A DNA stretch of 21,058 nt from Cochliopodium minus. Taxonomy: Eukaryota > Discosea > Himatismenida > Cochliopodiidae. Positions 93 through 21,058 of this stretch are shown here, in pieces. A program made the translations under genes and the position numbers. The notes below the pieces were generated by a model. That model did no database searches. It was not told the origin of the DNA and saw only the letters and a list, made by a program, of their open reading frames with translations. The stretch covers positions 232,610 through 253,667 of the forward strand of contig JAMYWO010000022.1 in NCBI GenBank assembly GCA_024220525.1. Reading direction: 5' to 3'. Position 1 is the stretch's first letter, and each line of letters begins with the position of its first letter.

Positions 93-102
93 ACAATTTT
101 AC

Positions 103-1656: not shown

Positions 1657-1689
1657 TTTTTTTTTTGTTTTTTTCGAAAATAAAAAAAA

Positions 1690-1885
1690 GAATCTTTGTG
1701 CAAATGAAGAGGTAAACAGACGAAGACAGATGGTTCACTCCTTATCATTCGTTGAGAACCAAAAAATTTCATGAATTCTACTAGCTCCAACATTGGAAAT
1801 AAGGCAAACAAAGTTGGGAGAAAAGGTTAAAACAAGAATTAAAAGGACTGCAAGAACTCAGAAGAAAGATTGAAGATCAATAAAT
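1690..1885. other. Unexplained GC-richer island between two minus-strand genes
   Basis: The spacer 1657-2020 contains a stretch clearly richer in G/C than the usual A/T spacer. On the plus strand, the frame from about 1716 to 1881 reads like a charged, helical protein (WFTPYHSLRTKKFHEFY near the start) but has TAG and TAA codons inside it. On the minus strand a frame is open from about 1814 to 1659, with an ATG at 1793. Neither matches a family I recognise. It could be a decayed gene, a short upstream reading frame of the membrane ankyrin gene, or an untranslated leader. Confidence 0.35.
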
Positions 1886-2020
1886 TCCCTTTTATTGTGC
1901 TGTTTCCTCCAAAAACATTAAAACCGTTGTTGTAAATATTTAGAAGATGCAAATGAGAATTTAATCAAACTTTTTTTTGAATTAATTTTCTAAAATAATT
2001 TTCCTTTAATTTAATAATCT

Positions 2021-3970
2021 TTATTTATCAGCTTGTTGGTGAAGTTTCGTGTAGTGCTCATAACCTTGTATGTCACCTTCATTTTTCAAAAAGAGAGAAT
2101 AGTTGTAGAGTCCATCAGGGTTCCCAAGATCAGCAGACTGTTTGGTCAAAGTCCTTGCCTTCAGATAATTCTCATCACCACCCTCAGACACCAACAAAGA
2201 AGCATAATTGTTCATTCCGTCAGTATCACCAAACACAACAGATTCTTCGTAGAGAAGTTTAGCTCTTTCGATGTTGTCCTTACCACCTTGTTTCTTCAAC
2301 AAAAAAGCATGATTGTTCAAAAATTTTTTTTCGCCAAGTTTGTGCGCTCTTTCGTAGAGGAGGATCGCTTTTTTAAAGTTGCCTTCGTTAGTCAAGAAAA
2401 TGGCATAGTTTTGAATGCCATCAAGATTGTTGAGTTGCGTGGATTGTTCATAAAGTTGTGTTGCCCTCTCCTTGTTTTCTTTTCCGCCCAATTTAACAAG
2501 AAAGAAAGCAAAGTTAGCCATGACGAGAGAGTTGTCAGGATGATGTAGAAGAGCGAGCTCGTATGTTTTTTTGGTTCTTTCGAGATCATACTCTTCTCCG
2601 AAAAGAAGATCAGCAAAAGCAGGAAGACCGTTGGTGTTCCCATATTCGTACGCTTTTTGGTAGAGCTGAACAGCTCTCTCCACATTTTCGTATCCCCCGA
2701 GATTCCCCAAATAATTAGCATAATAATTTAACGCACTCGTGTCTCCCAATTCAATCGCAATGTGATAAAGTTGGACAGCTCTCTCGACGTTCTCATTTCC
2801 ACCTTCCATGATCAACAAAGCAGCTCTGAGGGTCATTGCTCTAGTTTCGCCCAACCAGATCAGTTTTTCACAAATTTGCGCTGCTTTTTCCAAATTGTCC
2901 TTTCCTCCTTTCTCAGCCAAAGTTTTGGCATTCTGAAGCAACTCGACTTTGTCCAAATTGCTTTTTTCTCCCTGAGCTTTCAAAACAAGGGAGATGTGTT
3001 TGATTGCACCAGGATCTCTCACTTTGAGTGCTTGTTCAAAAAGTTTTTGTGCCTTCTCTCTGTATTGCTCTTCATTTTCTTTCATAAGCAAACTGTAATA
3101 ATTGTAGTACGCAGATGTGACGCCTGCGTTGACTGCTTTTTCATAGAGTTCTTTGGTTTTTTCAAAGTTATGTTTCTCTTGTTCGATTTCATAAATAAGA
3201 GCAAGGTATACTATGGACTCATTATTCCCGCTCTCAATAGACTGTTCGAGTAATTTTTTTGCTTTGTAGTTGTCTTTCAAGTTCCCATACTTATCATAAA
3301 GGTATGTGGCGTACTTGTGTAGAGCCTCCGTGTGTCCCAATCCTATCACTTGTTCGTACAGTTGTTTTATTCTCGAGTTGTTTTTTTCTCTTCCCTCGTT
3401 GGTAAGAAAAGTAATGTAAAGATATATCGCCGATTTGTTCCCACCTTGAGATGCTTGCTCGAATAACTTTTTTGCTTCTTCTACTTTCCCTTCTTTCCCT
3501 AATAAATTGGCGTAGTTTGCCATTGAATGTGTGTTTCCCAATTCAACTCCCTCTTTGTATAACTCCTTTGCTCTTTCCGTGTTTTCTTTTCCTCCCAACA
3601 GCTCCAAAACCAAAGCATAGTTGTTTATTCCCTTTTTGTTTCCGAATCCGTAAGATATGTTGTACAGTTTTTTCGCTTCCAGAAGATTTTTTCTTCCACC
3701 TTCTTTTGTATATTTCTCTGCTTTTTCATTCATCATATCTCCTATCATGAATGATGATTCATCTTTTTGATCCTCCACTGCTGATTCATTTTTGATAGTT
3801 GTATAATATCTCTTTTTTTCAAATTTGTTAAATGAGATTTTAAAATGGTAAGGAGCAAATGAATTATGTTTATTCCCTAAAAATGAAAGATTGGAAGAAT
3901 GTATATTCAACCATTTCTTTTTTATTGATGCGAAAATTTTTTTTTTATTGAGCTGCTTTATTGTTTTCAT
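2021..3970 (-). CDS. Sel1-like repeat protein, possible mitochondrial presequence
   Basis: A single uninterrupted exon encodes 649 residues; ATG at 3970 is the first in-frame ATG and the stop is TAA at 2021. From about residue 85 the protein consists of roughly fifteen Sel1/TPR-type helical repeats of ~36 residues, with the pattern A..LYE.A...GNT.A..NYA..L...GG.EN.ERA. These form a superhelical scaffold for protein-protein contacts in the known family. The first ~65 residues are rich in K, S, T, N and aromatic residues, lack acids until late, and end in RYYTT. That resembles a mitochondrial targeting peptide, but this is inference. It is intronless, unlike most of its neighbours. There is no enzymatic domain, so the specific role is unknown. 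Confidence 0.88.
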   Translation of the reverse strand: MKTIKQLNKKKIFASIKKKWLNIHSSNLSFLGNKHNSFAPYHFKISFNKFEKKRYYTTIKNESAVEDQKDESSFMIGDMMNEKAEKYTKEGGRKNLLEAKKLYNISYGFGNKKGINNYALVLELLGGKENTERAKELYKEGVELGNTHSMANYANLLGKEGKVEEAKKLFEQASQGGNKSAIYLYITFLTNEGREKNNSRIKQLYEQVIGLGHTEALHKYATYLYDKYGNLKDNYKAKKLLEQSIESGNNESIVYLALIYEIEQEKHNFEKTKELYEKAVNAGVTSAYYNYYSLLMKENEEQYREKAQKLFEQALKVRDPGAIKHISLVLKAQGEKSNLDKVELLQNAKTLAEKGGKDNLEKAAQICEKLIWLGETRAMTLRAALLIMEGGNENVERAVQLYHIAIELGDTSALNYYANYLGNLGGYENVERAVQLYQKAYEYGNTNGLPAFADLLFGEEYDLERTKKTYELALLHHPDNSLVMANFAFFLVKLGGKENKERATQLYEQSTQLNNLDGIQNYAIFLTNEGNFKKAILLYERAHKLGEKKFLNNHAFLLKKQGGKDNIERAKLLYEESVVFGDTDGMNNYASLLVSEGGDENYLKARTLTKQSADLGNPDGLYNYSLFLKNEGDIQGYEHYTKLHQQADK

Positions 3971-4113
3971 TTTCAAAATTTTTTTATTTTTTTTGTTTAG
4001 TTTAATCTCTATATTGTAGATGTATCTTCTAATTTTGGATTTTCCTTTTATGTATGGAGTTTTGCCATACTTTAAAAAAAAAAATGTTGTAATAAAAAAT
4101 AATTTTTTAATGA

Positions 4114-5215
4114 TTAATATTCATAATCATCGTAATCATCATCGTTGTCTTTGTAGAAATCTCTCTCTTCATCTGAATCGTTAGAGTAGTGTTCATCCTC
4201 GTCATCAGGAGTGGAAGGATAGTCCACTTCATCAGAATCTCCTGGTCCATCATCTTCATTTTTGTAGTAATCACTGTCATCATCATTATCGTTTTCATTT
4301 ATATCCTAAAGGAATTTTAAAAAAAAAAATTAAATTAATTAAATTTTATTTTAATTGTTTTTTTACGTATTCATCCAACGAAAAAGGAGCAATTGGTAAT
4401 TCTTCTTTAATATCAAGATTTGAAGTAGATTCATCGATGATAAAGTAATCGTTGACAAACTCTTCGTGGACAGAAGATTCTATTCTCTCCAACTTGTCGT
4501 CGTTGATGTAGATGTCTTCCCTTTTCTTCTGAGGCAGTTCCATTTCGAATAATTTGAATTCATCTTTGTCTTTTGTGTTTTTTCTGAATGTTTCCACTTT
4601 TTTAATTCTGCTTTGTTTTATTCTTTCCTTTCAAGATTTCAAAAATTTAAAATTAAATTGAATTTTGGCGCCAATTTTTTTATCAAATTAAAATAACGTA
4701 ATAAGAGGCTTGATGATCAATGGATCAGATGATATGAATTCTTTTATATTTATATTCCTCTTTATAGTTTTATATTCAGCTTTATAATCAATATTGTCAC
4801 TTACATATAACTGATCTTTATCATTTTGTTTTCTATTTTGTATTGTTCTATTCAAATCCCTATCTTTCTCGTTGTCGTGCGAGATATTTTCTTTATTATT
4901 CAACATATCGAAGAAATTGGGATCAATTTTTTGATCATCTTTCAAGGATATCACCCTCTTGAACACTTTTAAATTTTGCTTTTTTTTGAGTGGGATAAAT
5001 TCGTTATTATTCTTATTATTATTATTGATGGATAAATCCTTTTGATTCTCTTTATCTTTTTTGAGAGATAGATTTTTGAATAGAGGTTCCATATTCCCAT
5101 CTTCTTCCAAAATGATTTTTTTATATTGCTTCTTAGAATTGTTAAATACTATAAAATCCAAAGGCTCTTCATCTCTTGGTCTTTTGATTTGCACAACGTG
5201 TACTTTATTGTTCAT
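4114..5215 (-). CDS. IWR1: Iwr1/SLC7A6OS-type RNA polymerase II nuclear import factor
   Basis: Three exons, 5215-4698, 4610-4367 and 4305-4114, join in consistent phases (2, then 0) with GT/AG introns and give 317 residues, close to human SLC7A6OS (about 310). The N-terminus has the family signature VVQIKRPRDEEPLD. The middle exon carries EEFVNDYFIIDES, corresponding to the conserved YDIYY-like patch of the Iwr1 domain. The last exon is extremely acidic with SDEVDYPSTPDDEDE, as in the Asp/Glu-rich tail of the family. In yeast Iwr1 carries assembled RNA polymerase II into the nucleus through an N-terminal basic import signal, then is exported. Identification is by motif pattern only. It lies head to head with the zinc finger ankyrin gene across about 425 bases. 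Confidence 0.72.
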
Positions 5216-5640
5216 TTTGAAATCAATTTTTTTTTATTTTTTATTTATATTGTTCAAAAATTGAAAATTCAAACATTCAAGAAAAATTTACTTAAAAAGT
5301 TTTTCATTTATTTGGACAAGAGTTTATGGAAATCTCGACTACGTAACTCTTTACCAATTTTTTTTGATTAAATCTTCATGCTCATCTATCTACTTTACAA
5401 ACAAGGTGAGGAACAACAAAGTACTTTGCTCCGATGACATTGTGAGCTTTTTTTTTTAACACTTGAAAAAAAACTCTTGTGTTTATGGATAAATCACGCA
5501 TTCATAATTTGTCCAAAAGATACAATGGATTTAATTCTTCATTGTAAAAAAAAAAGATAAAAAAATTCAATTTAAATCAAGATCTAAATTTGATTTACTT
5601 TTTTGAAATATTAAAAAATAAAAATAATATAAAATTTGAA
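5216..5640. promoter_or_regulatory. Divergent intergenic region with scattered inverted repeats
   Basis: This spacer separates the Iwr1 gene (minus) from the zinc finger ankyrin gene (plus) and must hold both promoters. Its centre is less A/T-pure than other spacers. It contains a 10-base inverted pair (ACAAGAGTTT at 5317-5326 with AAACTCTTGT at 5471-5480) and a 9-base inverted pair (TTTGGACAA at 5311-5319 with TTGTCCAAA at 5509-5517). GTTTATGGA also recurs as a direct repeat. No promoter motif or RNA gene can be named. Confidence 0.45.
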
Positions 5641-8215
5641 ATGGAAAAGAAAATATTTGAGGAAAAAATAATCAATGAATCAAATACGCTATTATTGGAA
5701 GATAATATGAATGTATTTGGATCAAAAGAGATAGATGAAGCCATAAAAAATAAAGAAAGAGAAAATGCTGTGAATAATGTGTCACAAATAGATTCCCATT
5801 CTTATTCATTCAAAAAGGAGGATGCAAATGACGATGGACTATTCATATTTGGAAATAATAACGATATGGACACTCCAACATCTTCCGAAGAGAAGATATC
5901 TTTTAAATTTGAATTTAAATCCTTCACAACTGAAAATAATGTCTTCATCAGTGAGGATAATCAACCATTCAAATTAGATATCATTCATGAGGAGAAGAAT
6001 ATTGAAATGGGGAATGAGAGAGGAGCATATGGCATTAAAAAAATGAAGCCAAGAAAAAATAATATGAAGGGAGGAATGATTAGGATGAAGAATCAATCAA
6101 CAAAGAAGAATATCAAATCGAAAATCAAATCAACAGAAGAGAAGAATATGATAGAGGATATCTCCAAGATAGAGGAAATAGATGAGAAGGTGCAATGTGA
6201 TTGTCCGAAGCCAGCGAAATACATGATAACGAGAGATAGAAAGATATACAACTGCCAAGATAAGAAATGCGGGTTCTTGTACTGGCAAGTGGTGACAGAG
6301 GAGATAGATGTGAATGAAGAAGATCTCTCGACGTTCAAAAACCAAGAGGATTACTTCCATTTCATAGACACGTACGACGTAAAGAAGAAAAAGGAAATAA
6401 CGTTGAAGAAACTGGTGTATTTTTTGGAGTTCATCCAAATCGACATCAACTCGAAGAATAACAAGGGACACACGTTGTTGGACCTTTCAATTTTGTCACA
6501 ACAAAAAATGAGCATAATAAGTTATTTATTAGAAAACAAAAGTAACGTGAATTTGTTGGACAATCAAAACAACACAGCGTTACATTTAGCGTGTACTTGC
6601 TACAAGTATTCTGTCGACATAATAAAACTTTTGTTAGAAAATAAAAGTGAAGTAAATTCACTGAATAGATTTGAGTTAACACCCCTCCATTTACTATGTC
6701 GAAACGAGCATTACACGCTCGATTTAATTAGTTTCCTCATCGAAAACAAAAGCAACGTCAACAGCCGGACAAGGAATCACTTGACTCCCCTCCACATGGC
6801 TTGCAAGAATGTCGGCGTGACTTTCGAGATGATCAAAACCTTGGTTGATAATAAAGCGGATATTAATTTTTTAAATTTGGAGAACAACTCTCCTTTTCAC
6901 TTTGCTTGTCAAAATAGGTTTGTCACTTTGGATCTCGTCAAGTATTTCGTAGAGAACAGTTGTGACCTGAAAAAATGCAATTCGCAAGGCTTTTCCCCGC
7001 TCCATCTCATCATCACCTCTGGAGAACCTCACTTAGATATCATCAAGTATCTCATCGAAAATAAGTCAGATCTCAACAAAGAGAACGAAGACAAAATGTC
7101 TCCCATCAACTTGTACCTCTCCCAATCCGATATTGTCCTCGATGTCCTTAAATATCTCGTCAAAAATAACTCCGACATTAATTCCCTCAACCATTCGAAC
7201 AAGACCCCTTTGCACTTGCTTTGTGGCAATCAAAAGGTTTCCTATGAAATGGTCGAGTACATGCTCAATGAAAATTGTATGATCAACGCTACTGACTCTG
7301 GTGGTTTCTCCACTCTCCACATTATTAGTAATAACCCTAATTATTCGTACGAAACTATAAAACTGATGGTAAACATTTTTTGAATAAGAAGCTTATGTGA
7401 ATTCTTTAAAAAAAAATTTTTCAAAATTATTTTTGAGCTACAAAAAAGTTTTTTTTGTTTCAAAATTGTTTTTTGTTTAATTTTTCTTTGTTTTAATTAT
7501 TCGGATCATTCATTCATTTTTTTTGTAAAGGTTGAAAAAAAAGGGAATTTGTCCCTTAAAGACAGTAACAAAAACACTCCCTTCCACTTTATGTGTCAAT
7601 CTCCAAAGCTCTACATAGACCACACTTTTTTGAATTTTCTTTTGGACAACAAAGCCAGGTTGGACGAGAGCAACAATTTGAAACTCACTCCCTTTGACAT
7701 CATTAAAACTTTTTTTGATAAAATCACAGAAGAGTTTATCATCACTTTGTTGATCCAAAAAAATTTCATATTTAAAAATGATAACACAAGATTTTCGAGC
7801 AATATTCATCAAGTTTTTGTAGAGTATCGAGCCGGTAAAATAATTTTGTTCGAAAAAAAAATTATTTTTGTTAGCAAAAAAAAAAATAAAATCAACATTT
7901 TAAAAGTTTTCTTTTAAAATTAATTTTAATATTTATGAAAAAAATCAATTTTCATTTATTAAAAATCTATTCTTTTTTTTAACAGGGAAACTGTGGAAAA
8001 TTGAAAGAAATAAATATTTCCCGAGTGAATTCAAGGAAAAAGTTTATACTTTGCTCCTCATTTTTAAGAGAATTTCTAAAGAGTCGTTGAAACAAATTTT
8101 TCCGAAACCTCTCCTCTATCTTATAGTCCAGATGGATTCCAGGCCCATTAGTAAATCGCCCTTATTGGTGTTTAATTCCAATAAAGCCAGAAGATCTGAC
8201 AAAATTACATATTAA
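5641..8215 (+). CDS. GRF-type zinc finger plus ankyrin-repeat protein
   Basis: Three exons, 5641-7368, 7531-7834 and 7986-8215, join in phases 0 and 1 with GT/AG introns to give 753 residues. Residues 1-140 are polar and acidic, probably disordered, and are followed by a Lys/Arg-rich stretch to ~170. At 186-215 lies C-x-C...C-x4-C-GFLYW (Cys186, Cys188, Cys205, Cys210, Trp215), the pattern of zf-GRF fingers, which bind single-stranded nucleic acid in topoisomerase III alpha, APE2 and NEIL3. From ~255 to ~690 run about a dozen ankyrin units of 35 residues (for example TPLHLLC, TPLHMAC). The last exon encodes a conserved-looking tail (LWKIERNKYFPSEF, then FPKPLLYLIV) shared with the other ankyrin gene. 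The start is the first ATG after stops in the A/T leader. Substrate and partners are unknown; the finger suggests a nucleic acid role. Confidence 0.8.
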
Positions 8216-8277
8216 AATAAGTGTTTTTTTTCAAGTTTTTTTTAATAGTTTAAAAATGGAGAATTTTTTAAAAAAAA

Positions 8278-9834
8278 ATGAAATTTAAATTAAAAAAAAA
8301 AATGAAGAATATTATACTCTATTCATTTTTTATATTGGCAATCTCTTTTTCTATTTTTTGCCAAAATTCTAATGTAGGGTATCCCCAAAAAGGATTCAAT
8401 GCCCAAAACAACAAGCATGTCCCCTATCTTGCCAATAAGCCGGCTTCTTCTGTTTATCAATCAGACTCTGGAGTATTTCAGACGATCGTTGCAAATAATG
8501 GAGATATTGTATTTGGATATAATAAACAAGGAAGTTCCATTTTAATCCTCTCTCAAGATTTTAAAGGCAAAATATATTTATTTTTTTTTTTTTTTTTTTA
8601 CGTCGACCTATCAAAGGTTTCTTATGATGTAATTCAAATATGAAAAGAATTTCATTTTTTTGAAAATATATCTAAATAGTGAAACAAAATATTTCATTGA
8701 ACATCAATGAAACAGCAACTTCTGTCGCACTTTCTAGTGACTATTTGTTTGTTGATGTCTCCAATCTCAAATCATCAGGAGAATCAGAATTCTATATCAA
8801 TGCATACAACATAAGTGATTCGTACAAATTTATTTGGACAACAATTTATTTTTCAAGCACAAACAAAATAACCACTTCCAACATTATCTTAGGACTTAAG
8901 AATTTCTTTTATTTTTATTATTACACATCAACAGAATTTGTTCAATTTGGCTTTGATGGTAGTTCTGGGACACAATTGTGGAATTTCACACTTCAAACTA
9001 ACACCTCCCAAAATTATTTTTTCAATAATTTATTAAGTGAAGATTTAAGCCAATTGTACATTTCATATATTGGTACAGGGTAACAAATAAATTCAATTTT
9101 TGAAAAAAAAATTTATTTTTTAAAGGTTCTCTTGCGTTGTTTTAGATGTTTTTAATGGCTTTCTTTTACACAATAATACACTAAGTGGATACTATAAACC
9201 AAGTTATATTCAAACAGCATTATTAGCTGGACTCCTCATTTTCACCTCTTGCGATAATTCTTTGTGTTCTGGTCAATGTAAAAAAAAGATGAAAAAATAA
9301 TCAACTTTTAAAAATTTTTGAAAAGATTATTTAGTTGCATATTTTCAATATACTCAATCAGTTTTGTGGAAAAAATCTTTCAATTCTGTCGATAAAATTG
9401 AAACTTTTTGTGGAAATTCTAAAGATTTATTTGTGGGACTTTACACAGAGTATTTTTTTTATTTTTTTAAAAAGTAAAATTAAACACACGAAAAAAGTTC
9501 AAACCTAGTCTCCATTTCATCCATCAACTCTTTTAATGGTAATACAAACTACAATATCACTGATAATGTCGGAGGATTTATTGATGGCAGCTTAACTGAT
9601 GGAAGTGTCATATTTTCGGGTTCAAAATTATCATCATATAACTTGACTGATGGAAGTAATTTTTTTTTATTGATTTTTACTTGTTTTATTATTTCCCTTT
9701 TTTTTTTTTTTTTGTAAGATCCACTATGGTCTTTCACTATTCCAAACAAAAACGGATACAATGTACAAATCTACCAAGAAAGTTCTTACATCCTTTGTTC
9801 TGATTCTTCAAACCAATGTTCCATTTACAAGTGA
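8278..9834 (+). CDS. Secreted PQQ-like beta-propeller protein
   Basis: Six exons (8278-8566, 8680-9079, 9126-9271, 9326-9449, 9498-9655, 9719-9834) fit together in phase throughout and give 410 residues. Two ATGs compete (8278 and 8302); the second places a clean signal peptide (ILYSFFILAISFSIFC) at the very start. The mature part shows repeated beta-propeller strands of the PQQ/quinoprotein type, such as GFDGSSGTQLWNF, CVVLDVFNGFLLHN, QSVLWKKSF and GNPLWSFTIPN, with Asp-Gly turns followed by Leu-Trp. It has several Asn-x-Ser/Thr sites and Cys residues, consistent with secretion. Such eukaryotic propellers often have no PQQ and serve as binding scaffolds; no catalytic residue can be named. 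The first intron appears to be GC-AG (8567-8679). It begins 62 bases after the ankyrin gene ends and converges with Trm1. Confidence 0.72.
8567..8679 (+). other. Probable GC-AG intron in the beta-propeller gene
   Basis: Exon 1 ends AAAG and is followed by GCAAAATAT. The only acceptor that keeps the next exon open (TAG at 8677-8679) requires a phase-1 donor. Later GT sites in the open frame (at the GTC and GTT codons near 8600-8620) are phase 0 and do not fit. An earlier phase-1 GT inside a GGAAGTTCC context (8534) is possible but would cut out a strand-like peptide (SSILILSQDFK). Confidence 0.55.
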
Positions 9835-10056
9835 AAAAAAAAATAAAAAATTGGAAATAAAAGATAAATTTGATATTGAAATAAAAAATTATAATAATAA
9901 AAAACAAAAACAAAAAAAAAAAATAAATATATAATATTAAAAACAAAAAAAAAAAAATGAAAAACAAAATAAATTTAAAATGAAAAGTAAAAAATTTTAG
10001 GGAAATAAAATCAAATAAAAAATAAATAAAATGTTAAATAAAATCATTTTAATAAT
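9835..10056. other. A-rich convergent spacer
   Basis: This spacer lies between the convergent ends of the beta-propeller and Trm1 genes. It is almost entirely A and T with AATAAA-like hexamers on both strands, which could serve as polyadenylation signals. Nothing else is recognisable. Confidence 0.6.
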
Positions 10057-11072
10057 TCAAATTTTGTCGTCTTCCATATCTTCAAGATTATTATTGTTGT
10101 CTTTATTGGTTTCGCCATCTTGTTCGCCAATCTCGCGTTTTCTCTTGGGAGGCTGAGCACGAGCCTTGGGACCCCAGTTGGGAGGGTTCTCGAAGAATCT
10201 GCCTCTAACTTTTTTGATCTCCTTGGACTTTACTTTGGCTTCTTCAAAGTCTATTTCTAAGTTGGGTTTTTTTTGCAAAATTTTGATTGTTTCTAACATT
10301 TCTAAACAAAAAAATCGTAAAAAAAAAAAAATGTTTAAATTTGAAAATAAAAAATGAAAAATACAAACTTTAAAAAGAAATAAATCCAAAAAAAAAAAAG
10401 CAGACAAGAATTAAAAAAACAATAATAATAAAGTTAAATGAAAAAAACTTTTGTAAAAGAAGTGAAAAAAATTATAAAAAAATTGAATAAAAAATTGAAT
10501 AAAAAATAAAATAAAAAAAAAAAAGAAAAAGAAAATAATAAAATAAAAAAAACTAAAAAAATAAAAAATAAATTTAATAAAAATAAAAATAAATAAAAAA
10601 TAAAAAAAACTTGCCTTTGTCCTTGGAGGAATAAATTGCCCAAGATTTGACGATGTCCCAGACAAGAGAGGAAGGGGCATTGGTTTTGAAGGAGCCCTTT
10701 GAAGTGTGGCTGTCAGAATACAAGTAGCCCTTTTGTTGCAAAATGTACTGCATGATTTTGGAGGACATCATTGTTGACTTTACTGTGGAGAACAGTTCCG
10801 CGTTGTTGAAAACGAAGCAGGTGTCAATTTCTATTTGAAAAAAAAAATTTAAAAATGAAAAATGAAAAATGAAAAATGAAAAATGAAAAATGAAAAATGA
10901 AAAATGAAAAAAATTAAAATAAAAATCTAAAAAAGAAAAATGAAATATGAAAAATGAAAAATGAAAAATGAAAATTATAAAATAAAAATAAAAAATTAAA
11001 TAACAGAATGATAAAATTTAAAATAAAAAAATAAAAAAAAAAATGTAAAAAAAAAATAAAAATGTAAAAAAT

Positions 11073-11109
<37 letters not shown>

Positions 11110-11568
11110 ATTATAATAAAACAAATTTTTTGATTTAAAAATAAAAATAAACACCAAAAAAATTGAACTACCTTGTTCTGCAAGTTGCAAAAAACCCATG
11201 GACTTTTTGTAACTTCCAAAAGATTTCTCGTTTTCTTTCATGTACTCAATCACAGAATTAACAAACTTTTTGTCATGCAAAGGACCTTAATTTAAATATC
11301 AAAATTTTTTTAAATTTTTAATTTTTTTAAATTTTTAATTTTTAAATTTTTTTTTTTTAAATTTTTAATTTTTAAATTTTTTTCAAATTTTTTACCAGTA
11401 TACACAGGACCAGCAATGTGAAAACTGGAATCACATATTTCACAATTTGAAGGAACCACATTCTTTGAGACAGAGACGCCAGGGTTCTGCTTCTGTTTGG
11501 TTTCCACACCGAAATTCTGTACGTGAAAGTTGTTGCACTGTCTGCATGTGTAAATCAAACCGGTTTTT
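10057..11568 (-). CDS. TRM1: Trm1 tRNA (guanine26-N2)-dimethyltransferase, C-terminal part only
   Basis: Four exons, 11568-11396, 11285-11172, 10830-10615 and 10301-10057, encode 248 residues that follow the Trm1 C-terminal domain in order. These are YTCRQC plus CEIC (zinc-binding Cys pairs), AGPVYTGPLHDKKFV, GYLYSDSHTSKGSFKTNAP, LVWDIVKSW and finally RFFENPPNWGPKARA. Trm1 dimethylates G26 of many tRNAs from S-adenosylmethionine. This domain grips the tRNA, while the Rossmann methyltransferase half, with its FYNP-type motif, should precede it. That half is absent from the whole window: upstream come a spacer, a base N at 11671 and then a kelch gene. The first exon shown starts with a phase-2 acceptor, so an upstream exon is required. 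Either the 5' half was separated by a misassembly or chromosome break near 11671, or this is a remnant. The intron 10614-10302 uses a GC donor. Confidence 0.88.
10302..10614 (-). other. GC-AG intron in Trm1
   Basis: The donor reads AAAG|GCAAGT, the known consensus for GC-AG introns. Only phase 1 joins KDK to EMLETIK and keeps the conserved RFFENP..WGPK block in frame. The nearby GT (four bases downstream) would be phase 2 and no matching acceptor exists. Confidence 0.75.
10852..10980. repeat. AAAAATG heptamer repeats inside a Trm1 intron
   Basis: About eight tandem copies of a 7-base unit (AAAAATG) occupy 10852-10910, and a shorter, imperfect block follows at 10936-10975. Both lie in the 341-base Trm1 intron 11171-10831. 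The period equals that of the TAAAAAA arrays at the window edges, differing by one base. Confidence 0.9.
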
Positions 11569-11602
11569 CTAAAAATTATAAATAAAAAATTTCAAAAAGA
11601 AA

Positions 11603-11713
11603 TTAAAACACAAAAAGAAAAAAACATGAAAAAAGTTTTGAAGATAATGGGGGTAGAGGAAGAGAATTTGNCAAATCATCTTCATTATTCTTTGTTGCAT
11701 ATTTCTCTACCAT
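11603..11713 (-). other. Possible exon or short frame containing the ambiguous base N
   Basis: An ATG at 11713 on the minus strand opens a frame (MVEKYATKNNEDDL, an unknown residue from the N at 11671, then NSLPLPPLSSKLF) ending at TAA 11603. It is GC-richer than its surroundings and sits between the kelch gene and Trm1 on the same strand. It may be a further exon of the kelch gene reached through TTTTAG|TTTGA, or two unrelated pieces joined at the N. It does not splice in phase to the Trm1 exon at 11568 as written. ATTTG and CAAAT flank the N as a 5-base palindrome. Confidence 0.35.
11671..11671. other. Ambiguous base N, candidate assembly joint
   Basis: This is the only non-ACGT base in the window. 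It lies exactly between a Trm1 gene without its 5' half and a kelch gene that looks short at its 3' end. Confidence 0.5.
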
Positions 11714-11861
11714 AAAAAAAAAAATCAAACTAAAATCATATTTAAAAGAAAAAAAAATATTTAAAAAAAAATAATTAAAAAAAAAAATAAACTAAAAAAA
11801 AAATAAACTAAAAAAAAATAAAAAATTAAAAATAAAAGATTAAAGATTAAAAATAATCAAT

Positions 11862-12579
11862 TTAATATATGTACAGATCATGCAACATGTTGCTTTTTCT
11901 GTCGTATCCTCCGTGGATATAAAGCTTTCTGTTAGAGGATTTGTAGAAAGATCTGTGAGCAGCTCTGGGTGTAAAACCTTGTAGCTCAACTGTTTTTTTT
12001 TTTAAAAAAATTTGAAATAAAAAATAAAAAAAATAAAAAAATAAAAAAAAATAAAAAATAAATAAAAAAATAAAAAATAAAAAAATAAAAAATAAAAAAA
12101 TAAAAAAAATAAAAAAAAAATTTAAAAAAAAAAATTTAAAAAATTTTTTACATTTTTTCCATTCTAAATATTGTTCTTTATCTGTTCCTAGTTTGCTTGC
12201 CCCATTCAACATGTACAATTTGTCTAACCCGTTGTATCCACCAAATATGTATATCTTTTTCAAAAAAAAAATAAAATTTTTGGTTTAAAAATAAGAAAGT
12301 TTTCTCTTACCTTATCATTTCCGTAATTCAATGTGTGTCCTGCCCTCTTTTTTTTATATTTTTTTTTTTATAAGAAATTTCGGTGAAACTTTTTGGTTAA
12401 GTAAATATACCCAATAATCTGATTTGGTCGGAAAATCCCCAAGACAATATACTATGTTTTTTTAAATTCATGGTGTGAGTTTATAACTTTATAGTTTAAA
12501 TATTCTCTTAATGTATATTTATAACTCATCAAAATTAAATTTATCAAATTTTTTTGTCTATCTTTACCTGGTGTGACAT
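11862..12579 (-). CDS. Kelch-repeat protein with small exons
   Basis: Five exons fit in phase: 12579-12568 (12 bases), 12451-12411 (41), 12344-12311 (34), 12254-12152 (103) and 11989-11862 (128), giving 105 residues to TAA. Two kelch blades are clear: AGHTLNYGNDKIYIFGGYNG, and then FTPRAAHRSF with RKLYIHGGYDR and HDLYIY. The double glycine preceded by hydrophobics is the diagnostic kelch feature. Kelch propellers normally need five to seven blades, so 105 residues is short. The true gene probably continues past a donor near 11880 into lost or distant exons, or it is truncated. The first two small exons are supported by phase and by restoring the AGHT start of a blade, but they are less certain than the last two. 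Function is unknown beyond a protein-binding propeller. Confidence 0.65.
12005..12140. repeat. A/T microsatellite in a kelch intron
   Basis: The intron between the last two kelch exons (12151-11990) is a run of A(4-10)T units related to the edge TAAAAAA arrays but irregular in length. No other content is seen. Confidence 0.85.
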
Positions 12580-12790
12580 AATTTTCTATTCTATTCAAAA
12601 AAAATATTAAAAAAAAATGTTCGCCTTGAATGGATCTATTTAAATTATGGTTTTTTTATTACTCCATATATATGTTCGAGGATCTTATTTTTCAAGCAAA
12701 AGAAATTTGGATTTTTTTTTTTTTATTTTGAGAAAAATATAAAAAAAAAAAATAGTATAATCACTTTGTACAGAAGATAGATATAGTGAA
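12580..12790. promoter_or_regulatory. Divergent spacer, kelch and small membrane gene
   Basis: About 210 A/T-rich bases lie between two divergently read genes. They contain long T and A runs and a TATATAT stretch near 12667. No specific site can be assigned. Confidence 0.4.
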
Positions 12791-13060
12791 ATGTCTTATT
12801 TAAAAAGCAGAATATTTTGGCAGAAGAGATGGTCTAATTTCAAATCAGATATTCCTCAAATCATCCCTGTTCTAGCTTTAACCTTTGGATTCATTGGATA
12901 TCAGGAGGTTATGGAGAAGAGAGAAGAGAATGGAAAGTACATATGGGAATTATATTTTCCCAAAGTTGTAGAAAATGAAAAATCAATTTGGTCAAATGAT
13001 AAATTGCTAAAAATAGGATCAAAAGATAAAGAGGAAAAATTTCATATAGAGAAAGATTAA
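12791..13060 (+). CDS. Small single-pass membrane protein, unknown
   Basis: An intronless frame of 89 residues starts at the first ATG after a T-rich leader. It begins with a basic, aromatic segment (FWQKRWSNFKSD), has one hydrophobic stretch around residues 24-38 (IIPVLALTFGFIGYQ), and continues into a charged tail with two Trp residues. The shape of short basic N-terminus, one membrane helix and charged tail is common among small mitochondrial inner-membrane subunits and assembly factors, but no family motif was recognised. Its GC content and codon use resemble those of neighbouring genes, so it is likely real. Confidence 0.65.
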   Translation: MSYLKSRIFWQKRWSNFKSDIPQIIPVLALTFGFIGYQEVMEKREENGKYIWELYFPKVVENEKSIWSNDKLLKIGSKDKEEKFHIEKD

Positions 13061-13333
13061 ATTATTTATTTGCTCAACACTCTTTTATATATTTACTATT
13101 TTATTTCTATCAAGATAATCACAATTTGAATTCATATTCATATAACATAAGATGATAAATCTTCCAATTTACAATATGACTTTTTATTGTTCACATATTG
13201 AATTCAATTTTTATAGGACCCGAAGCAAGTCTTGAATAGATAGATACCAAAGTAATGATGGAAATCTAGCGTTTTATGATGCCTGATTTTTTTTTAAATG
13301 TCCCTTGAAGTGAATTTTTGAAAAAAAAAAAAA
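13061..13333. other. Spacer before the collagen-like gene
   Basis: This 273-base region is less A/T-pure around 13216-13300, including GGACCCGAAGC and later ATGATGCCTGA followed by nine Ts. It could hold a small RNA or a leader, but there is no cloverleaf, convincing C/D box pair or open frame. Treated as unassigned. Confidence 0.35.
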
Positions 13334-15095
13334 ATGAAGATATTTCTGTTAATAGTACTTTTCATTTTTGTCTTGAGCATAAGTTGCAAAAAAGAAAGGG
13401 AAAATGATGAAATGAGTGGAGAAACACATTCAATTGAAATGAGAGCAAGTTATAGAAGAAAAAAAGGTAAACAAGGAGAGCCTGGAGAACAAGGTCCTCC
13501 AGGAGAAAGAGGTTCTAAAGGATCTACAGGTGCCCAAGGAGAGGCGGGTCCAAAAGGAGATGTGGGTGAGAAAGGTGAAGTTGGTGGGGCTGGTGCAGCA
13601 GGTGAACGAGGAGAAAGAGGTAGAAGAGGTAGAAGAGGTATTACTGGTGCTGTTGGTATTACTGGAGAAAAGGGAGAGGTGAGTTTTTTTAAATGAAAGA
13701 TTTTTTTAACTTGTTGAATAAATCATTAAGAGAAGAATTCATCAAAAAAAGAATTAAAAATTTGGATTTATACAAACTTTTGACACTATATAATTTTAAC
13801 ATTGGCATAAAATATCTACGTATATATAATTGAAAATTTCATTTTTGGAAAATTAAATTTATATTTAAAGGTCGGACAAAAAGGGGAAGTAGGATCAAGA
13901 GGATTAAGAGGTATCAGAGGTACCAAAGGAGATTTTGGTTTGACTGGTGCTACTGGTGAAGCAGGTAGCAAGGGAGCTAAAGGACAAAGAGGGTTGAGAG
14001 GACTGCGTGGTGTAAAAGGAGAAAAGGGTGATTTAGGTTTGGCAGGTGCTAATGGTGAAAAGGGGGTTGCTGGAGAAAAGGGACAGAGAGGGTTGAGAGG
14101 AAGAAATGCAGTTGGAGAAAAAGGACAAAAAGGAGAAGTAATACTTTAAACTAAATGAAACTTGTTAATTACAATATTTCACTTAAAAAATTTATTTAAA
14201 TTTTTTTCAATCCAAATTTAATTTTTTTTTTTAGGCAGGTATCAATGGAACGAATGGTATTAATGGTACTCCTGGTGAAACTGGTGCTAGAGGAAGACGA
14301 GGTCCATCTGGTGTTGGAATAAAGGGGGAACCTGGATCTCCTGGAGAGAAGGGAAGAAGAGGAATGCGAGGACAAAAGGGAGAACCTTCAAGAGAAATCA
14401 GAAAATTCCTCAGAGAAGTTGATGTTGGCTTCGAAAAAAAGAAAGCAACTCATTTTATCCTCCCAATTGATCTTTACCAAGCTTTCTACAATAACACTCA
14501 AAGTTATTATTATTCTTTGTTTAATGATAAGAATATCTCTTTCGGTAAATCCAAAGATTTCGTACATTTTGATGGAAAGAAAGATTTCACCATCAGTTGT
14601 GGAGAAAAGACCTCATTCAGTGGAAAATGTATAATCAAGAGTTATTCCTATAACTTGAAGAAATTTTCATGTGATGATAGTCAAGAAGCCTGTACCTCTA
14701 TTGAACTTTCTCTCATTAAAAAAGGTTCAAATTTTGAAATAGATGATTCTTTTGAAAACTCTTTCTCTTGTTCTTATATTCCTGAAGAAGAAGGTGTTTT
14801 CCATATCGTGGAATTAGAAGCATTGTGTACCAATAACGAAAAAACTGAATCTATTTTTATAGCAAACCAAAACTCTATCAATTCTCAGCTTGAAAAGAAA
14901 CTTGCCGAGGAAGAATCTCTAAATAAGAAACTTGAAAGTAAAATGGCTTTGGAAGAAACATCCAATGAAAAGCTCAAGAGAGATTCTGCACAACAATCTG
15001 ATTTAATCGAACAACTCCTAGAAAGAGAGAAACAAGAGGAGATAGAAATCAAAAGACAAAGTGAAATTTTGGAAAGAATTTTGGCAAAGAAATAA
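13334..15095 (+). CDS. Secreted collagen-like protein with Cys-rich domain and coiled coil
   Basis: Three exons, 13334-13678, 13871-14137 and 14235-15095, all join in phase 0 and give 490 residues. Residues 1-18 form a signal peptide (FLLIVLFIFVLSISC). Residues 45-255 are about 70 Gly-X-Y triplets rich in Lys, Arg, Glu and Pro (GEPGEQGPPGERGSKG), with two breaks: GRNAVG at 192-197 and GVG at 230-232. Residues ~270-430 form a globular domain with six Cys, and ~420-490 is a Leu/Glu/Lys coiled coil. Gly-X-Y repeats form a triple helix; the C-terminal coiled coil could drive trimerisation, which is inference. Both introns fall at the same place within a triplet, after Gly-Glu. The product is probably an extracellular or vesicle-lumen filament. 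The globular domain matches nothing I recognise. Confidence 0.88.
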
Positions 15096-15132
15096 ATAAA
15101 TAAAATTAATATACAAAATAAAAAAAAAAAAA

Positions 15133-15642
15133 ATGAAAATCTCCAAAAAATGTAATCTTTCTGGATCATTAATTAAATTATCCAACAAATTGTCAAATAA
15201 AGAATTGAAAAAACAAGAGATCAGATCAGAAATCAATCAAATAATGAAGGATAAAAAATCACAAAGCAAGATTCTCAGAAATATCTTCATAGGTGTGTTT
15301 GGAATCTCCGTGTATGGCTATTATATGAGTGGAGATAGCAAAAAAAATGTGGATAAGATCAAAAAGTTGAAGGATGAAGAAATCGAGAAATTGAATGTTG
15401 AATTGAAATACAACAATAGAAAGACGAATAAGATATATTCCCAACTAGAAAAGCAATTCATAAATAATATTCCTCAATTATCTCAGAGATTGGGTTTGCC
15501 TGAAAAGGATTTGGAGGTTGGATTGATGAAAATATTGGAAGATTCCAAACAAATATTGTTTCCTGATCTATTGGAGATCAAAGAGGAAGTAAAAGAGGAT
15601 GAAGAAGTCGAAGAAAGAGAAAGGATAATATATGAGAAATAA
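15133..15642 (+). CDS. Single-pass membrane protein with coiled-coil, unknown
   Basis: An intronless frame of 169 residues starts only 37 bases after the stop of the collagen-like gene. A basic N-terminal ~50 residues is followed by one membrane segment (ILRNIFIGVFGISVYGYYM, about 53-72), then a Lys/Glu-rich helical region and a very acidic end (KEEVKEDEEVEERER). The RN..IG..G..VYGYYM pattern is loosely like the membrane helix of Coa3-type cytochrome oxidase assembly factors, but the long C-terminal part is not typical. That suggestion is weak. The tight spacing implies overlapping transcription signals with the upstream gene, or co-transcription. Confidence 0.68.
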   Translation: MKISKKCNLSGSLIKLSNKLSNKELKKQEIRSEINQIMKDKKSQSKILRNIFIGVFGISVYGYYMSGDSKKNVDKIKKLKDEEIEKLNVELKYNNRKTNKIYSQLEKQFINNIPQLSQRLGLPEKDLEVGLMKILEDSKQILFPDLLEIKEEVKEDEEVEERERIIYEK

Positions 15643-15936
15643 AGGAATTGAATAGGAAATTATTTATTATTTGCAAAAAAATCAAAGTGTATTAAATCAT
15701 AATGAATCAATTTGATTTCTCTTAATATTTTTATCTTTATAATGCATTCTACTTATTTATAGGAATCAAAAAAAATTTTTTTTTTTTTTTATAAAATTGT
15801 TTAATAATTATATATTAAAAATAAAAAAAAACTTGAAAGGTAAAATTGATTTAATTAAATTTTTGATGATATTATCATCAATATTATACTTCTACATGAA
15901 CATATAAATTTATAATCTATTTACAAATAGAATAAT
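15643..15936. promoter_or_regulatory. Spacer upstream of eS30
   Basis: About 290 A/T-rich bases include a 17-base T run (15776-15790 region) and A/T palindromes such as TATATAT. They must hold the terminator of the preceding gene and the promoter of a highly expressed ribosomal protein gene. No distinct motif is recognised. Confidence 0.4.
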
Positions 15937-16131
15937 ATGGGAAAAGTTCACGGAGGTTTAGCTAAAGTCGGAAAAGTAAAAAATCAAACACCAAAAGTCG
16001 ATAAGACTCAAGGTTTCAAGAAAAAAACTGGAAGAGCAAAAAAAAGATTGTTGTATAACAGAAGATTCCTTTCCCAAGTTTCCACTGATGGAAAGAAAAA
16101 GGGACCAAACGCACAAGATAGATTCATGTAG
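15937..16131 (+). CDS. RPS30: Small ribosomal subunit protein eS30
   Basis: A 64-residue, intronless frame matches eS30 along its whole length. It starts [20 protein letters not shown], continues [16 protein letters not shown] and ends [13 protein letters not shown] before TAG. eS30 is a very basic protein of the 40S subunit near the decoding region. In animals it is made as a fusion behind a ubiquitin-like domain (FAU). Here ATG directly precedes the mature sequence, so there is no fusion, as in fungi. The stop at the expected C-terminus also shows that TAG is a normal stop codon in this genome. Confidence 0.97.
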
Positions 16132-16442
16132 AAGATAAATCCTTCAAAATAATTTTTTACTTTGAATTATAATAAATAAATTATTCTTAAATGTTCAATT
16201 TTAATAATTTCTTAAAAAGATTTTATACATTTGAGCCATTTGAAAATAAAGACATAAATAAATGAGAAATTGCAAACTAAATTAATCAGTATATAAAGAT
16301 ACCTTTTGATCATTGATTATAAAATTGGTTATATACTTTATTAAAGCATATGGGAAATTTTTTCTTTTGAATATGTCCTATTCATATTTACATACTGTTT
16401 GGTGATTCGAATCATGCAAATTCCTAATGTTTGGAAACAGAT
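16132..16442. other. Convergent spacer between eS30 and DTWD1
   Basis: The 311 bases between the two convergent genes are A/T-rich, with several AATAAA-type hexamers near the eS30 end. They include a perfect 12-base palindrome, TGATTCGAATCA at 16403-16414. No gene is seen. Confidence 0.5.
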
Positions 16443-17502
16443 TTATTTAATGTAATTTATTTTCTTTGTGAATTCAATATTTTTTGTTTTGTAATTCCTT
16501 TGAATCAAAACATAGTTGTAAGAAAAAAAGAATAGTAAATCATCAAAACGTCCATCATATTCAATTGCAAGAACATTATTTTCGTTGTTGTCAATCTGGA
16601 CAGGCAAAGTAGCGAAAAAGTACTCCTTGTAAAAATAATAAATTGCTTCTATGGTAGCAAGACCTTTCTCACCAACGTTCTTTGGTTGATACCTCCAAAA
16701 CAAAGTATCGTGGGTATTGATGATGACACAGTTGAGATCACAGATGTTTTGGTGGTTGAGAATTTTTTTGGCTGTTTGCCATTGACTGTCTATGACTATC
16801 AACTTTTTTATATTTCCTAGATCTTCAATGTCTTTGACTAGTTTAGCTCCCTTTTTTGGAAAAAGTAAGACTACTTCGTCTTTGTTGTACTTTGGAATTT
16901 CGTCAGGAAATTCATATATTTCGGAGGTGGTTGGGCATATCACTTTATTTTTTTCAAAATAAATTTAAATTTAAAAAGATGAAACAATGATTTGAAATAT
17001 TAATCCCATATACAAATATATTCCCAATGAAATAATTAACTGTAAATTATACTTGACACTTTTATATTTTTGAAAAATGTGAATTACATTTTGCATGTAC
17101 AGCTGTGCTCTTTGTTTTTTTTTCTGTTGGATAATGTATACTAAATAAAATTTTTTAGATTTTTTGAGATAACAGATAATCATAAGATTGATTAGTATTT
17201 ATTTACATATCCATTTGTAGCGGCAAATTAATTGGTTTCAATTTTTTCGAATCTCCAACCAATTCATAACAATAACAACAATACCATTTACAATTCTTCT
17301 TGCATTTAGGACATTTATTTCTTTCTGTATTATTCTCCAATATATCATAAGATGTAAACTTGAAGTCTTTGAAAGGATTTTCCACTTTAACAGATTTATC
17401 ATTATTATCGATTATTTCATTGATATTTTTATCTTCTTTATTGCTATTGTTATCCATATTATCAGTTTCAATCTTCCTTTTCTTATTTAGTTCTTTATTC
17501 AT
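16443..17502 (-). CDS. DTWD1: DTWD1-type tRNA-uridine aminocarboxypropyltransferase
   Basis: Three exons, 17502-17207, 17140-17088 and 16942-16443, join in phases 2 and 1 with GT/AG introns (66 and 145 bases) to give 282 residues, close to human DTWD1 (about 304). After a polar N-terminus come Cys pairs (CPKCKKNCKWYCCYC, residues 64-78). The middle exon carries KSTAVHAK, the conserved KST motif. The last exon has the DxxW core (IDSQWQTAKK, Asp168 and Trp171) and RYQP...LATIEAIYYF, the end of the DTW domain. DTWD1 adds the aminocarboxypropyl group of S-adenosylmethionine to uridine 20 in the tRNA D-loop (acp3U). The exon structure is backed by continuous family motifs across both introns. It lies head to head with the lipase gene. 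Confidence 0.9.
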
Positions 17503-17854
17503 ACAAGGATAGTTTTTATTTTAATTTTTTTTTGAAAGAAAATTAAAAAAAATTTGATTTCTTTTAATTTTCTCATAAATTCATCCAATTTTTATGGAAA
17601 AAGACTTCAAAATGAAATGATTTCGTTCTATGGTGATTCATTCTTGAATAATTTTAATATATATAATTTGAGAATTCCATTCATGTTTGATCATCGATTT
17701 TCTTAGTTGATCCCATCAAATAGTTCAACAAAGATATGTGTTTGATGAATTATTTTGAATCTTATGATTATAAATTTCATTATAAAATAAAGGATCCATC
17801 CTTTATTTGAAGTAAATTTAAGATTTTTTAAATAAAATTGAATTGAGAAAGAAG
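17503..17854. promoter_or_regulatory. Divergent promoter region, DTWD1 and lipase
   Basis: A 352-base spacer serves both genes. It is less homopolymeric than most spacers here and has a perfect 11-base inverted repeat at 17785-17808, listed separately. No TATA box can be singled out in such A/T-rich sequence. Confidence 0.45.
17785..17808. repeat. Perfect 11-base inverted repeat before the lipase gene
   Basis: AAATAAAGGAT and ATCCTTTATTT are exact reverse complements separated by CC. The end is 46 bases before the lipase ATG at 17855. It could be a dimer-binding operator or a leader hairpin. Confidence 0.7.
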
Positions 17855-20207
17855 ATGGATAATACCAATATAGATGAAAGGAAGAAATTGAGATTCATCA
17901 CCCACACAATCTGCAAGGCCTCCAGTAGCAACGAGGAGGAATGCAGGAAGAAAATGGGGAAATTGGGGCTGGATGTAGACATGTGGAGCTCCTCCCTCAA
18001 TCTCCTATCGAATAATGACTATATCATCATCTGTTGTACTTTTAAACAGCCTACAGATAAAATCATAGAGCATATTCAAAATGGAACAAGCAATCAGATC
18101 CTTCAGATAGGAGATAGAACCATCAATGCATCCATCTATCAGGATTTCTGGAAGCAATCGTTTGAATTCGTATGGCATCAGAAATTGGATCTTCTGCTGG
18201 AATGCTCATCTCAGGAGAGGAAATTCATCATCTGTGGACATTCTATAGGAGGCGCCATTGCAATATGTTTGTATTTGAGGATCATCTCGTCGCAACTCCC
18301 TTTGAAATATGACATCAAAAAGATCCTCAAGAATATCTACGTAAGATCCCTAAAGATATATAGATATATAAAACCCAAAATTTCTTGATTCTTTTCTTCA
18401 CAAGAATTTTATCTAAGATATTGAACTTTTTTGTTTGGATTTTATCTTAAATTTAACTTTTAAAATCAAAAGATTCGTACTCAAAGATATATTCATTATA
18501 TACAATATCCAACGAACAGAATTATATTCCCTAACTTTGAAACATGTTTATTTTTTTTCAATTTTTTTGAATTTTTTTTTTATTTTAAATTATTATTTTT
18601 TATTTAATTTTAAAAATTATTATTTTTTATTTGTTTATTCATATTTATTTATAAAACATTTTTTGAAGGCAATCACATTTGGAGCACCAATAGTTGGAGA
18701 CAACAAAATCCAAAGTCTACTGGAAGAACTAAACATGAAAGAGAACATCACGCAGTACGCCAACAAAAGAGATCCCATCCCCCTCTTCCCCAAATGCTTT
18801 GACAACTACCTTATCAGCACCAAACAAATTCTTCCCTTGAATCTCGAGTATGGTTTGATTGGAACTCTCGCTTTGATTGTTGGAGATGCTGATGACCAAA
18901 CTACTCATTATTTTTTCAACGTTGAGGTTTTTTTTTTTATTTTTTAATATTTTTTTTTTTTTTATTTTTTAACAAATTTAAATTTCATTATTTTTTTTTT
19001 TCATTTTTTTTTTTAAAATTTGTTTGAATTAATTTTTTAATTTTATTTCCTCTATTTTTTATACTTTTTTTTAATGTATTAAATTGTAGAAATGTTTATT
19101 TTAAAATTTTTATGTATTTTTTATTTATTTGCAATTTAATTTTTTATTCAATTTTTTTATTTAAAAATTTCATTTAAATATTTCATTTAGAATATTTTAT
19201 TTCTGAAAAAAAAAGGATAAACAAAAATGGATGAGTTATTGTGAAAAAGACTACCAATTTATATTTGAAATAGAGGAAGAAAAAGACTTGCAAGATCCCT
19301 CTCAGAAAGTAGACCCCCTTTTGCTCATTCGTGAGACCATGCTCCATTACCTGAAGCCCAATGCCTTAGAGTCTTATGTGCCTGGTGCTTACATCGAAAA
19401 CAGAAAATTGTCTGAAAATTTGAAGTATGGTGCTTTTGTGTTATTTAAGGTTTGGAATATTTATTTTTAAATTTTTTATTTAAAATTTTTTTTTTATTTT
19501 TTTTAAAAATATGTTATATTTTCAACAATTTTTTTTCCAAATTTTTTTTTATGAAATTAGTTTTTTTATTTTCAATAAAGGGTTTCATTTTTTAAATAAA
19601 AAGTTTAACATTTTTTTTTTTAATTTTTTTTAAAACGAAGATAAATAAATGTTTTTTTTTAAAATTGCCATTAATGCATATTTTTTAGAATATATCACAG
19701 TTTAACTTTGATAAATTCAACAAAATTCTCGACCCTCCCAAAGGAGCCACAAAATGGTCTAAAGAACGCACCTCTTGGCTTTTAGAGAGGCTCAAAGAAG
19801 ACTACAATGGCTTCGACAACCTCGAAAAGTCCCACAAAAACCTCCACTTGGAGCTAGCGAAGGGTCGTTTTTCCAAAATTTCATGGTGGAATCCGTATTT
19901 TTCTTCTATTGAAGGTTGAATTATTTTTAATTAATTTTTTTTTTTTAAATTTAAATTTTTTTTTAATTTAAAAAAAGGAAAAGTAAAAGTACAAATTTCA
20001 GATAATGTGACACAATGGTCTTATGTCTCTTCAGGAAATGAATTTTTGGGAGTTCTTGAGTATGTGGTGTTGCAGTACTTTATCAACTTTGAGAGCAAAA
20101 TCAGGGAGGTTTCCCAGCATCAAATCGATTTGGATAACATGGAAGTAGTGGATTTAGGAGAATTGGAGATTAAAAATGATGATAAAAAAAGTGAAGAAAA
20201 TAAATAA
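17855..20207 (+). CDS. Class 3 (fungal-type) lipase-like protein
   Basis: Five exons, 17855-18340, 18669-18926, 19216-19449, 19689-19914 and 19978-20207, join in phases 0, 0, 0 and 1 to give 477 residues. An alternative acceptor for the last exon is possible at 19999-20001. The alpha/beta-hydrolase core shows the nucleophile elbow CGHSIGGA (Ser130), the AITFGAPIVGD block (163-173), RDPIPLFP with the likely catalytic Asp197, and a plausible His242 in TTHYFF. This is the full triad pattern of Lipase_3 enzymes, which hydrolyse acyl esters. There is no signal peptide or membrane helix, suggesting a cytosolic enzyme. Residues ~249-477 form a Trp-rich, charged helical extension of unknown role that recalls, only in layout, plant EDS1-like proteins. 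The stop lies 29 bases from the stop of the convergent ankyrin gene. Confidence 0.85.
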
Positions 20208-20236
20208 TTTTTTTTAAAAAAACCTCTTGAAATTTT

Positions 20237-20933
20237 TTAATTTTCTGTTTTTAGAGACAAAAATTCAAAAATGATATTTAACAAGTACTTTGGTACTTTG
20301 ATCTTTTTTTCCAAGCAGTTATTTACGAGCAGGAAAGTTTCCACAGAATACCGAAACTCTTTAGGATGAAAAGTGTGGGTACGATAGCCCCAAATGCTAC
20401 CTTTTTTAAAAAAAAGTGCAATAGTTTTTGCAGACTCTTTATTACAAAATTTGTAGGCTAATTGTTCAGGTGTGAGTTTATTATGTACGGTATTCTTGAG
20501 AGGAAAGGCAGAATAGCAAAGAAAAATTTCCAATAAATTTGTTTTGTCTAGTTTTGTTCTTTTACATAAGTTGAGAAAGGGGGAATCCCTTTTCAAATTA
20601 GGGGTATTGGGGTTTGCCCTTTTTCTCAGTAAAACTACAATAATTTTTTTTTAAATTTTTTTTTTTTTAATTAACAAAAAATTCAAAGTTATGTAAAAAA
20701 TTAAAATTAATTTAAAAAATTTATACATTTAAGGACATTTTCTTTTAGTTTGTGGTCTTTGACTGCAAAATGTAACAAAGTCTCATGGAACTCATTTTGG
20801 GTATTGATGTAGATTCCTTTTTCAACTAAAAGACGGAGAGTATCCAAAGGGATGGAATTTCCTATCATGTGTTGGAAGGGGGTAAAACCTTTTTTATTTC
20901 CAATGATCGGGTTAGCACCATTTATTAACAAAT
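20237..20933 (-). CDS. Ankyrin-repeat protein, C-terminal exons; 5' part off the window
   Basis: Two exons, 20933-20727 and 20634-20237, join in phase 1 (ENVLK to FLLRKRANPN) and are preceded by an intron that runs off the right edge. They encode about four 33-35-residue ankyrin units (GANPIIGNKKGFTPFQHM, HETLLHFAV, DSPFLNLC, LTPEQLA). A C-terminal module follows (WGYRTHTFHPKEFRYSVETF, then VPKYLLNIIFEFL) that resembles the tail of the gene at 5641-8215. The first exon begins with two bases completing a codon, so the missing upstream exon must end in phase 1. The left-edge ankyrin gene leaves the window in just such a phase, and the two are proposed to be one gene. Confidence 0.85.
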
Positions 20934-20984
20934 CTTTTCATTTTTTTTTTGGAAATATAATAAATAATAAATAATAACAAGTTG

Positions 20985-21058
20985 TAAAAAATAAAAAATA
21001 AAAAATAAAAAATAAAAAATAAAAAATAAAAAATAAAAAATAAAAAATAAAAAATAAA
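20985..21058. repeat. TAAAAAA heptamer microsatellite, right edge
   Basis: About ten almost perfect copies of TAAAAAA fill the right end, in the same orientation and nearly the same register as the left edge. The array lies in the intron upstream of the ankyrin exon at 20933. If the ends abut, one unit would be a base short, as expected for a microsatellite of uncertain copy number. Confidence 0.95.

Follow-up and report, generated by a model that had tools for sequence, protein, structure and literature searches.

Ankyrin-repeat exons at the two ends of a Cochliopodium minus scaffold stretch and a probable reversal of contig order

Genes and features of the window

The window analysed here is a stretch of 21,058 nucleotides of Cochliopodium minus (GenBank assembly GCA_024220525.1, contig JAMYWO010000022.1, called C22 below). 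It corresponds to C22:232610-253667, and its right end is the end of the scaffold. A run of 1856 N lies directly to its left, and the sole non-ACGT base within it is a single N at 11671, which separates the two parts designated contigs A and B (Table 1). To the left of the window, a further contig, designated S, starts at C22:214502, next to a single N at C22:214501, and has its right end at C22:230753, so that the order printed in the scaffold is S-A-B. S was taken as one contig but may carry another N within C22:216201-222700, and further N joins may also lie in C22:207224-208611 and C22:211786-212899. Genome searches were performed on 44.65 Mb in 598 contigs, which is smaller than the published draft (50.57 Mb in 1474 scaffolds, PMC9198077), so pieces are missing from the sequence searched.

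Table 1. Contigs, join and gene features of the window, in window coordinates
Feature	Position	Strand	Basis and remarks
Contig A	1..11670		Single N at 11671 and TRMT1-type gene halves; in the genome, S lies to its right and B probably to its left
5' part of interrupted ankyrin intron	1..102	-	Pure TAAAAAA array at 1-55
Ankyrin exon with phase-1 donor at 102-101	103..292	-	Pfam Ank
Preceding ankyrin exon, left-edge gene	552..850	-	Pfam Ank matches on 477-896; intron 551-293; start at 850 set by eye from splice sites
Putative first exon of left-edge gene	1065..1656	-	Open frame; limits by eye; hydrophobic N-terminal region
TRMT1-type tRNA (guanine-N2) methyltransferase gene, C-terminal half, several exons	10057..11568	-	PF02005
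Scaffold join A-B, false	11671..11671		Only non-ACGT base in the window; A-side gene continues elsewhere
Contig B	11672..21058		Ankyrin gene exits right end of B as left-edge gene of A requires; probably left of A in the genome
Kelch-like exons, left end of B	11865..12259	-	Best match PF24681, E 2.6e-5, 24.1 bits against a cut-off of 50; below curated cut-offs
Last exon of right-edge ankyrin gene	20240..20634	-	Intron 20726-20635; C-terminal region common to other genes of the genome
Ankyrin exon with phase-1 acceptor at 20935-20934	20727..20933	-	Pfam Ank
3' part of interrupted ankyrin intron	20934..21058	-	Last 74 nt are a pure TAAAAAA array

Both edges of the window carry parts of ankyrin-repeat genes. 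On the minus strand, exon 292-103 terminates in ...AATTAATT/GTAAAATTG at its donor, and exon 20933-20727 is preceded by ...AATGAAAAG/ at its acceptor; exons, splice sites, strand and phase were all found as described in the initial annotation, which had proposed that one ankyrin gene spans the two window ends. The joined reading that it had given, NPNLIN-Y-LLINGANP, was reproduced, and the frame is open over 132 aa of the joined exons. Also recovered were the lengths of 35 residues that it had reported for the unit before the joint and the unit across it (TALHF...YHE and TPFHKFC...KKGF, scoring 32.7 and 27.8 bits with an ankyrin profile of 35 positions derived from the same genome). Pfam Ank is above its cut-off on both edge exons. 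With Ank_4, the edge halves score 30.0 and 30.3 bits (cut-off 22.7) and the join 58.7, with no gain beyond the sum, and with Ank_2 the halves score 26.1 and 22.3 bits and the join 52.0.

Within the right-edge gene, the intron between the last two exons matches the claimed joint in both position and phase, so the pattern recurs inside that gene. The C-terminal region encoded by its last exon was matched 25 times in the genome, including itself (24 other places), without any Pfam match, and the N-terminal region in the left-edge gene's putative first exon gave neither a Pfam match nor a second copy in the 44.65 Mb searched. The exact overlap of the window ends is 55 nt and consists entirely of the TAAAAAA array; no overlap of unique sequence was found between them, and an over-long array could hide one. 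Elsewhere in the window, at 13400-15092 on the plus strand, collagen-like GXX-repeat frames follow a hydrophobic start and are succeeded by a coiled-coil-like region, in what looks like an ordinary gene.

The TRMT1-type gene and the join at 11671

The second gene that bears on the contig order is the TRMT1-type methyltransferase gene near the right end of A. A search of the genome with PF02005 returned three places, namely C533 (profile positions 15-288), C22:215949-214722 on the minus strand (17-240) and the window. When the A exons were given in spliced form (a 167-aa part), profile positions 235-375 were matched with 91.7 bits, and the full profile is covered by the two halves, 17-240 on S and 235-375 on A. 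The match in C533 overlaps the PF02005 part in the window, which identifies C533 as the site of a paralogue. The N-terminal half of the gene lies at C22:216138-214741 (minus), at the left end of S and on the same strand as the A half, and its leftward run-off reaches the single N at C22:214501.

For alignment, the two halves and the C533 paralogue were spliced by hand. Against the paralogue, the N-terminal half aligns to residues 20-264 and the C-terminal half to residues 265-330, with no gap and no overlap, and in a match to the solved structure 2dul they span 4-239 and 273-375, respectively. The donor CAATC/GTAATCG (phase 2) at C22:214741 and the acceptor TTTTTAG/A at window position 11568 contribute two bases and one base to a single codon, and the paralogue is also interrupted by an intron at the point of the split. 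Because the halves meet with matching splice phase, the right end of A adjoins S, which is printed before A. The gene thus passes from the right end of A into C22:214741-216138 and not into B, sequence continuity from 11670 to 11672 fails, and the A-B join at 11671 is false.

This result bears directly on the three explanations that had been offered initially for the adjacency of the window ends: a circular molecule, a tandem unit of 21 kb, or a linear locus whose printed order is rotated. The circle and the tandem unit are lost because 11670 does not continue into 11672, whereas the third explanation is supported, as a swap of A and B mends both genes. A circular molecule equal to the window would account for the agreement of its ends in strand, phase and array, and a precedent might be seen in scaffold C270, whose two ends overlap exactly over 77 nt of unique sequence with an RBR-like gene across them; such a circle nevertheless requires 11670 to be followed by 11672, while A continues into C22:214502, its ends lack a unique terminal overlap, and the published scaffolding linked A to the body of C22, which together leave it with scarcely any probability. 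Tandem repetition of a 21-kb unit would draw on the same end agreement and the same precedent but needs the same false A-B join, and neither edge exon had another copy in the genome searched (next best identities 34% and 37%), unless the array was collapsed, in which case copies would be hidden; it is just as hard to credit. With S rather than B as the right neighbour of A, both 21-kb forms are effectively excluded. Slightly better placed, and still very improbable, is a larger circle or tandem unit that would really exist, about 37 kb long and in the order S-B-A, in which the right end of S would adjoin the left end of B: it is compatible with both gene junctions (A to S and B to A) and keeps both genes continuous, but no evidence of an S-to-B junction was obtained, and a linear order B-A-S takes fewer assumptions.

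Weight of the agreement between the window ends

The ends of 20 scaffolds were sampled (40 ends, 600 nt each), of which eight starts consisted of N and 32 ends were readable. Four or more TAAAAAA copies were present in the terminal 80 nt at 11 of the 32 readable ends, compared with 87 of 19,388 random interior 80-mers. Genome-wide, a six-copy pattern gave 3,942 overlapping matches and a twelve-copy pattern six matches at two places. Contigs thus stop at long arrays, and the shared TAAAAAA array of the window ends is uninformative; the flanking microsatellite, which had been counted as evidence, does not exceed chance. Little weight could likewise be given to the 35-residue repeat spacing, which is the commonest in this genome (35 aa in 62 cases, 34 aa in 32, 33 aa in 15 and 36 aa in 14). 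The claimed agreement in phase and register fared better and is moderately beyond chance: in a set of 24 ankyrin introns called by script (12 with loosened thresholds) and two read by hand, only seven of 302 between-locus pairs had the same phase and differed by no more than one position in the unit. No ankyrin unit was found in the last 600 nt of any of the 32 readable ends, and the presence of ankyrin at both window ends exceeds this chance expectation. A comparison of the residual likeness of the left and right units, taken at face value, spoke against a single gene, with a left-right value (-0.52) below all 406 between-gene and all 29 within-gene values; the left-left (-0.42) and right-right (-0.62) values were similarly low, so that the test had no power and was dropped as evidence.

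The main rival is coincidence, in which the scaffold would otherwise be correctly ordered near B and the edges would be cut in introns of two separate ankyrin genes whose agreement is fortuitous. Ankyrin genes are plentiful here (Ank_2 was matched at least 181 times and the left exon 145 times), the proportion of scaffold ends terminated by arrays is that given above, and at the left end of C214 (C214:1-1300) a further ankyrin gene is interrupted within an intron that carries an A-rich array. Set against this, the donor in C214 is, by eye, at a different ankyrin unit position from the window joint, phase and register are shared by few pairs and ankyrin units by none of the sampled ends, and the A-B join, which would keep B on the right of A, is false. 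A rival 5' ankyrin partner was not found among 11 regions (scaffold ends or near-end ankyrin loci), which form a small part of all ends. Coincidence is accordingly considered unlikely, although it retains more probability than any of the circular or tandem forms.

Contig order, assembly background and comparable scaffolds

The window ends are most probably adjacent through a fault of contig order in the assembly, in which the true order B-A-S was printed as S-A-B and an ordinary gene was cut in two. With the order B-A-S, the ankyrin gene (B to A) and the TRMT1-type gene (A to S) are both continuous and the right end of the window comes to lie beside its left end. As expected of a contig-order error, the halves of the TRMT1-type gene join only under a changed order, and the apparent ankyrin junction from B to A is a second, independent one with the same new order. 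We infer that the two ankyrin halves are one gene, a reading strengthened by the independent TRMT1-type junction, and the two ends of the window probably belong together in the genome.

The fault probably arose as follows. The window comprises two short-read contigs, A and B, and at both outer ends the assembler halted in a TAAAAAA array that exceeded its reach. During scaffolding, S, A and B were probably recognised as neighbours and printed in reversed order while keeping the orientation of each contig. A single minus-strand ankyrin gene would then start in A, leave it at the left end via the array-bearing intron and continue in the right end of B, and the TRMT1-type gene is divided likewise between the left end of S and the right end of A. 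A mate-pair orientation or order error during scaffolding is the presumed cause. For a negative gap, SSPACE prints one N. If the mate orientation had been misread, the printed gap might, as a conjecture, equal twice the insert length minus the lengths of S and A and the true gap; a 15-kb insert, a size drawn from papers on other projects, would then leave 222 nt as the true gap for the printed 1856, on the assumption that S is one contig.

An inverted arm of 102 nt (89%) is common to the right end of S and C22:205667, and tentatively suggests that the reversal would extend by one contig, but other copies of the sequence exist, with 51 of 54 positions in C548 and, at the protein level, weaker similarity in C48 and C104. 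A short sequence, ATCATAGATGAGTGG..., recurs at C22:230660-230753, C22:205667-205767 and C548:813, twice at contig ends and inverted, and no Rfam match was obtained for it. The left flank of the 1856-N run was considered as the missing ankyrin C-terminus and rejected, because the sequence has other copies; it gave no Rfam match.

Among 18 myosin-head loci (three incomplete) and 16 kinesin loci, no other gene was found split in reversed order within a scaffold, and the contig reversal is shown at scaffold C22 only. The incomplete myosin-head genes lie at C84:93140-94221 (profile positions 2-315), C79:163295-164665 (384-593) and C496:115-1617 (22-277); their other halves are not adjacent, and further false joins or scaffold breaks are possible at these places.

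According to PMC9198077, the assembly was built from SPAdes contigs with Redundans and with SSPACE using artificial mate pairs from a linked-read assembly, and scaffolds were cut at gaps over 10 kb. This pipeline, as described there, fits both the single-N joins and the scaffold starts composed wholly of N. At least 600 N were present at the start of eight of the 20 sampled scaffolds (C60, C90, C150, C180, C300, C330, C420 and C480) and at the end of none, a distribution that fits cutting at large gaps with the N left on the following piece.

The junction of the window ends is therefore best explained as an assembly artefact and not as a real genomic feature, and its biological interest is low, the biology being that of a single ankyrin gene cut through an assembly fault. 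Its consequences concern the published draft, in which at least one scaffold has a wrong contig order, so that gene models, synteny and transfer claims that cross its N joins should be checked. The case also illustrates that a misordered scaffold can be detected through gene continuity from sequence alone.

Compared with the other ankyrin-repeat genes of this genome, the window gene is alike in its Pfam Ank matches above cut-offs, its 35-aa units and its AT-rich GT-AG introns, and differs by a hydrophobic N-terminal region without relatives in the genome searched. Scaffold C270 (53,240 bp; C270:1-600 compared with 52641-53240) resembles the window in that one gene apparently crosses its printed ends, the RBR-like gene running from the right end (RING-like part) to the left end (a weak IBR match, below cut-off). 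Its terminal overlap consists of 77 nt of exact, unique coding sequence, whereas that of the window is 55 nt of array only, and C270 represents a circular path or, alternatively, a scaffold of two swapped contigs. The closest comparison is with a mate-pair scaffolded draft that contains a contig-order error: order errors go unmentioned in the part of PMC9198077 available and the reversal described here concerns one scaffold, but the single-N joins, uneven N runs, split genes and low-complexity scaffold ends are those of such a draft.
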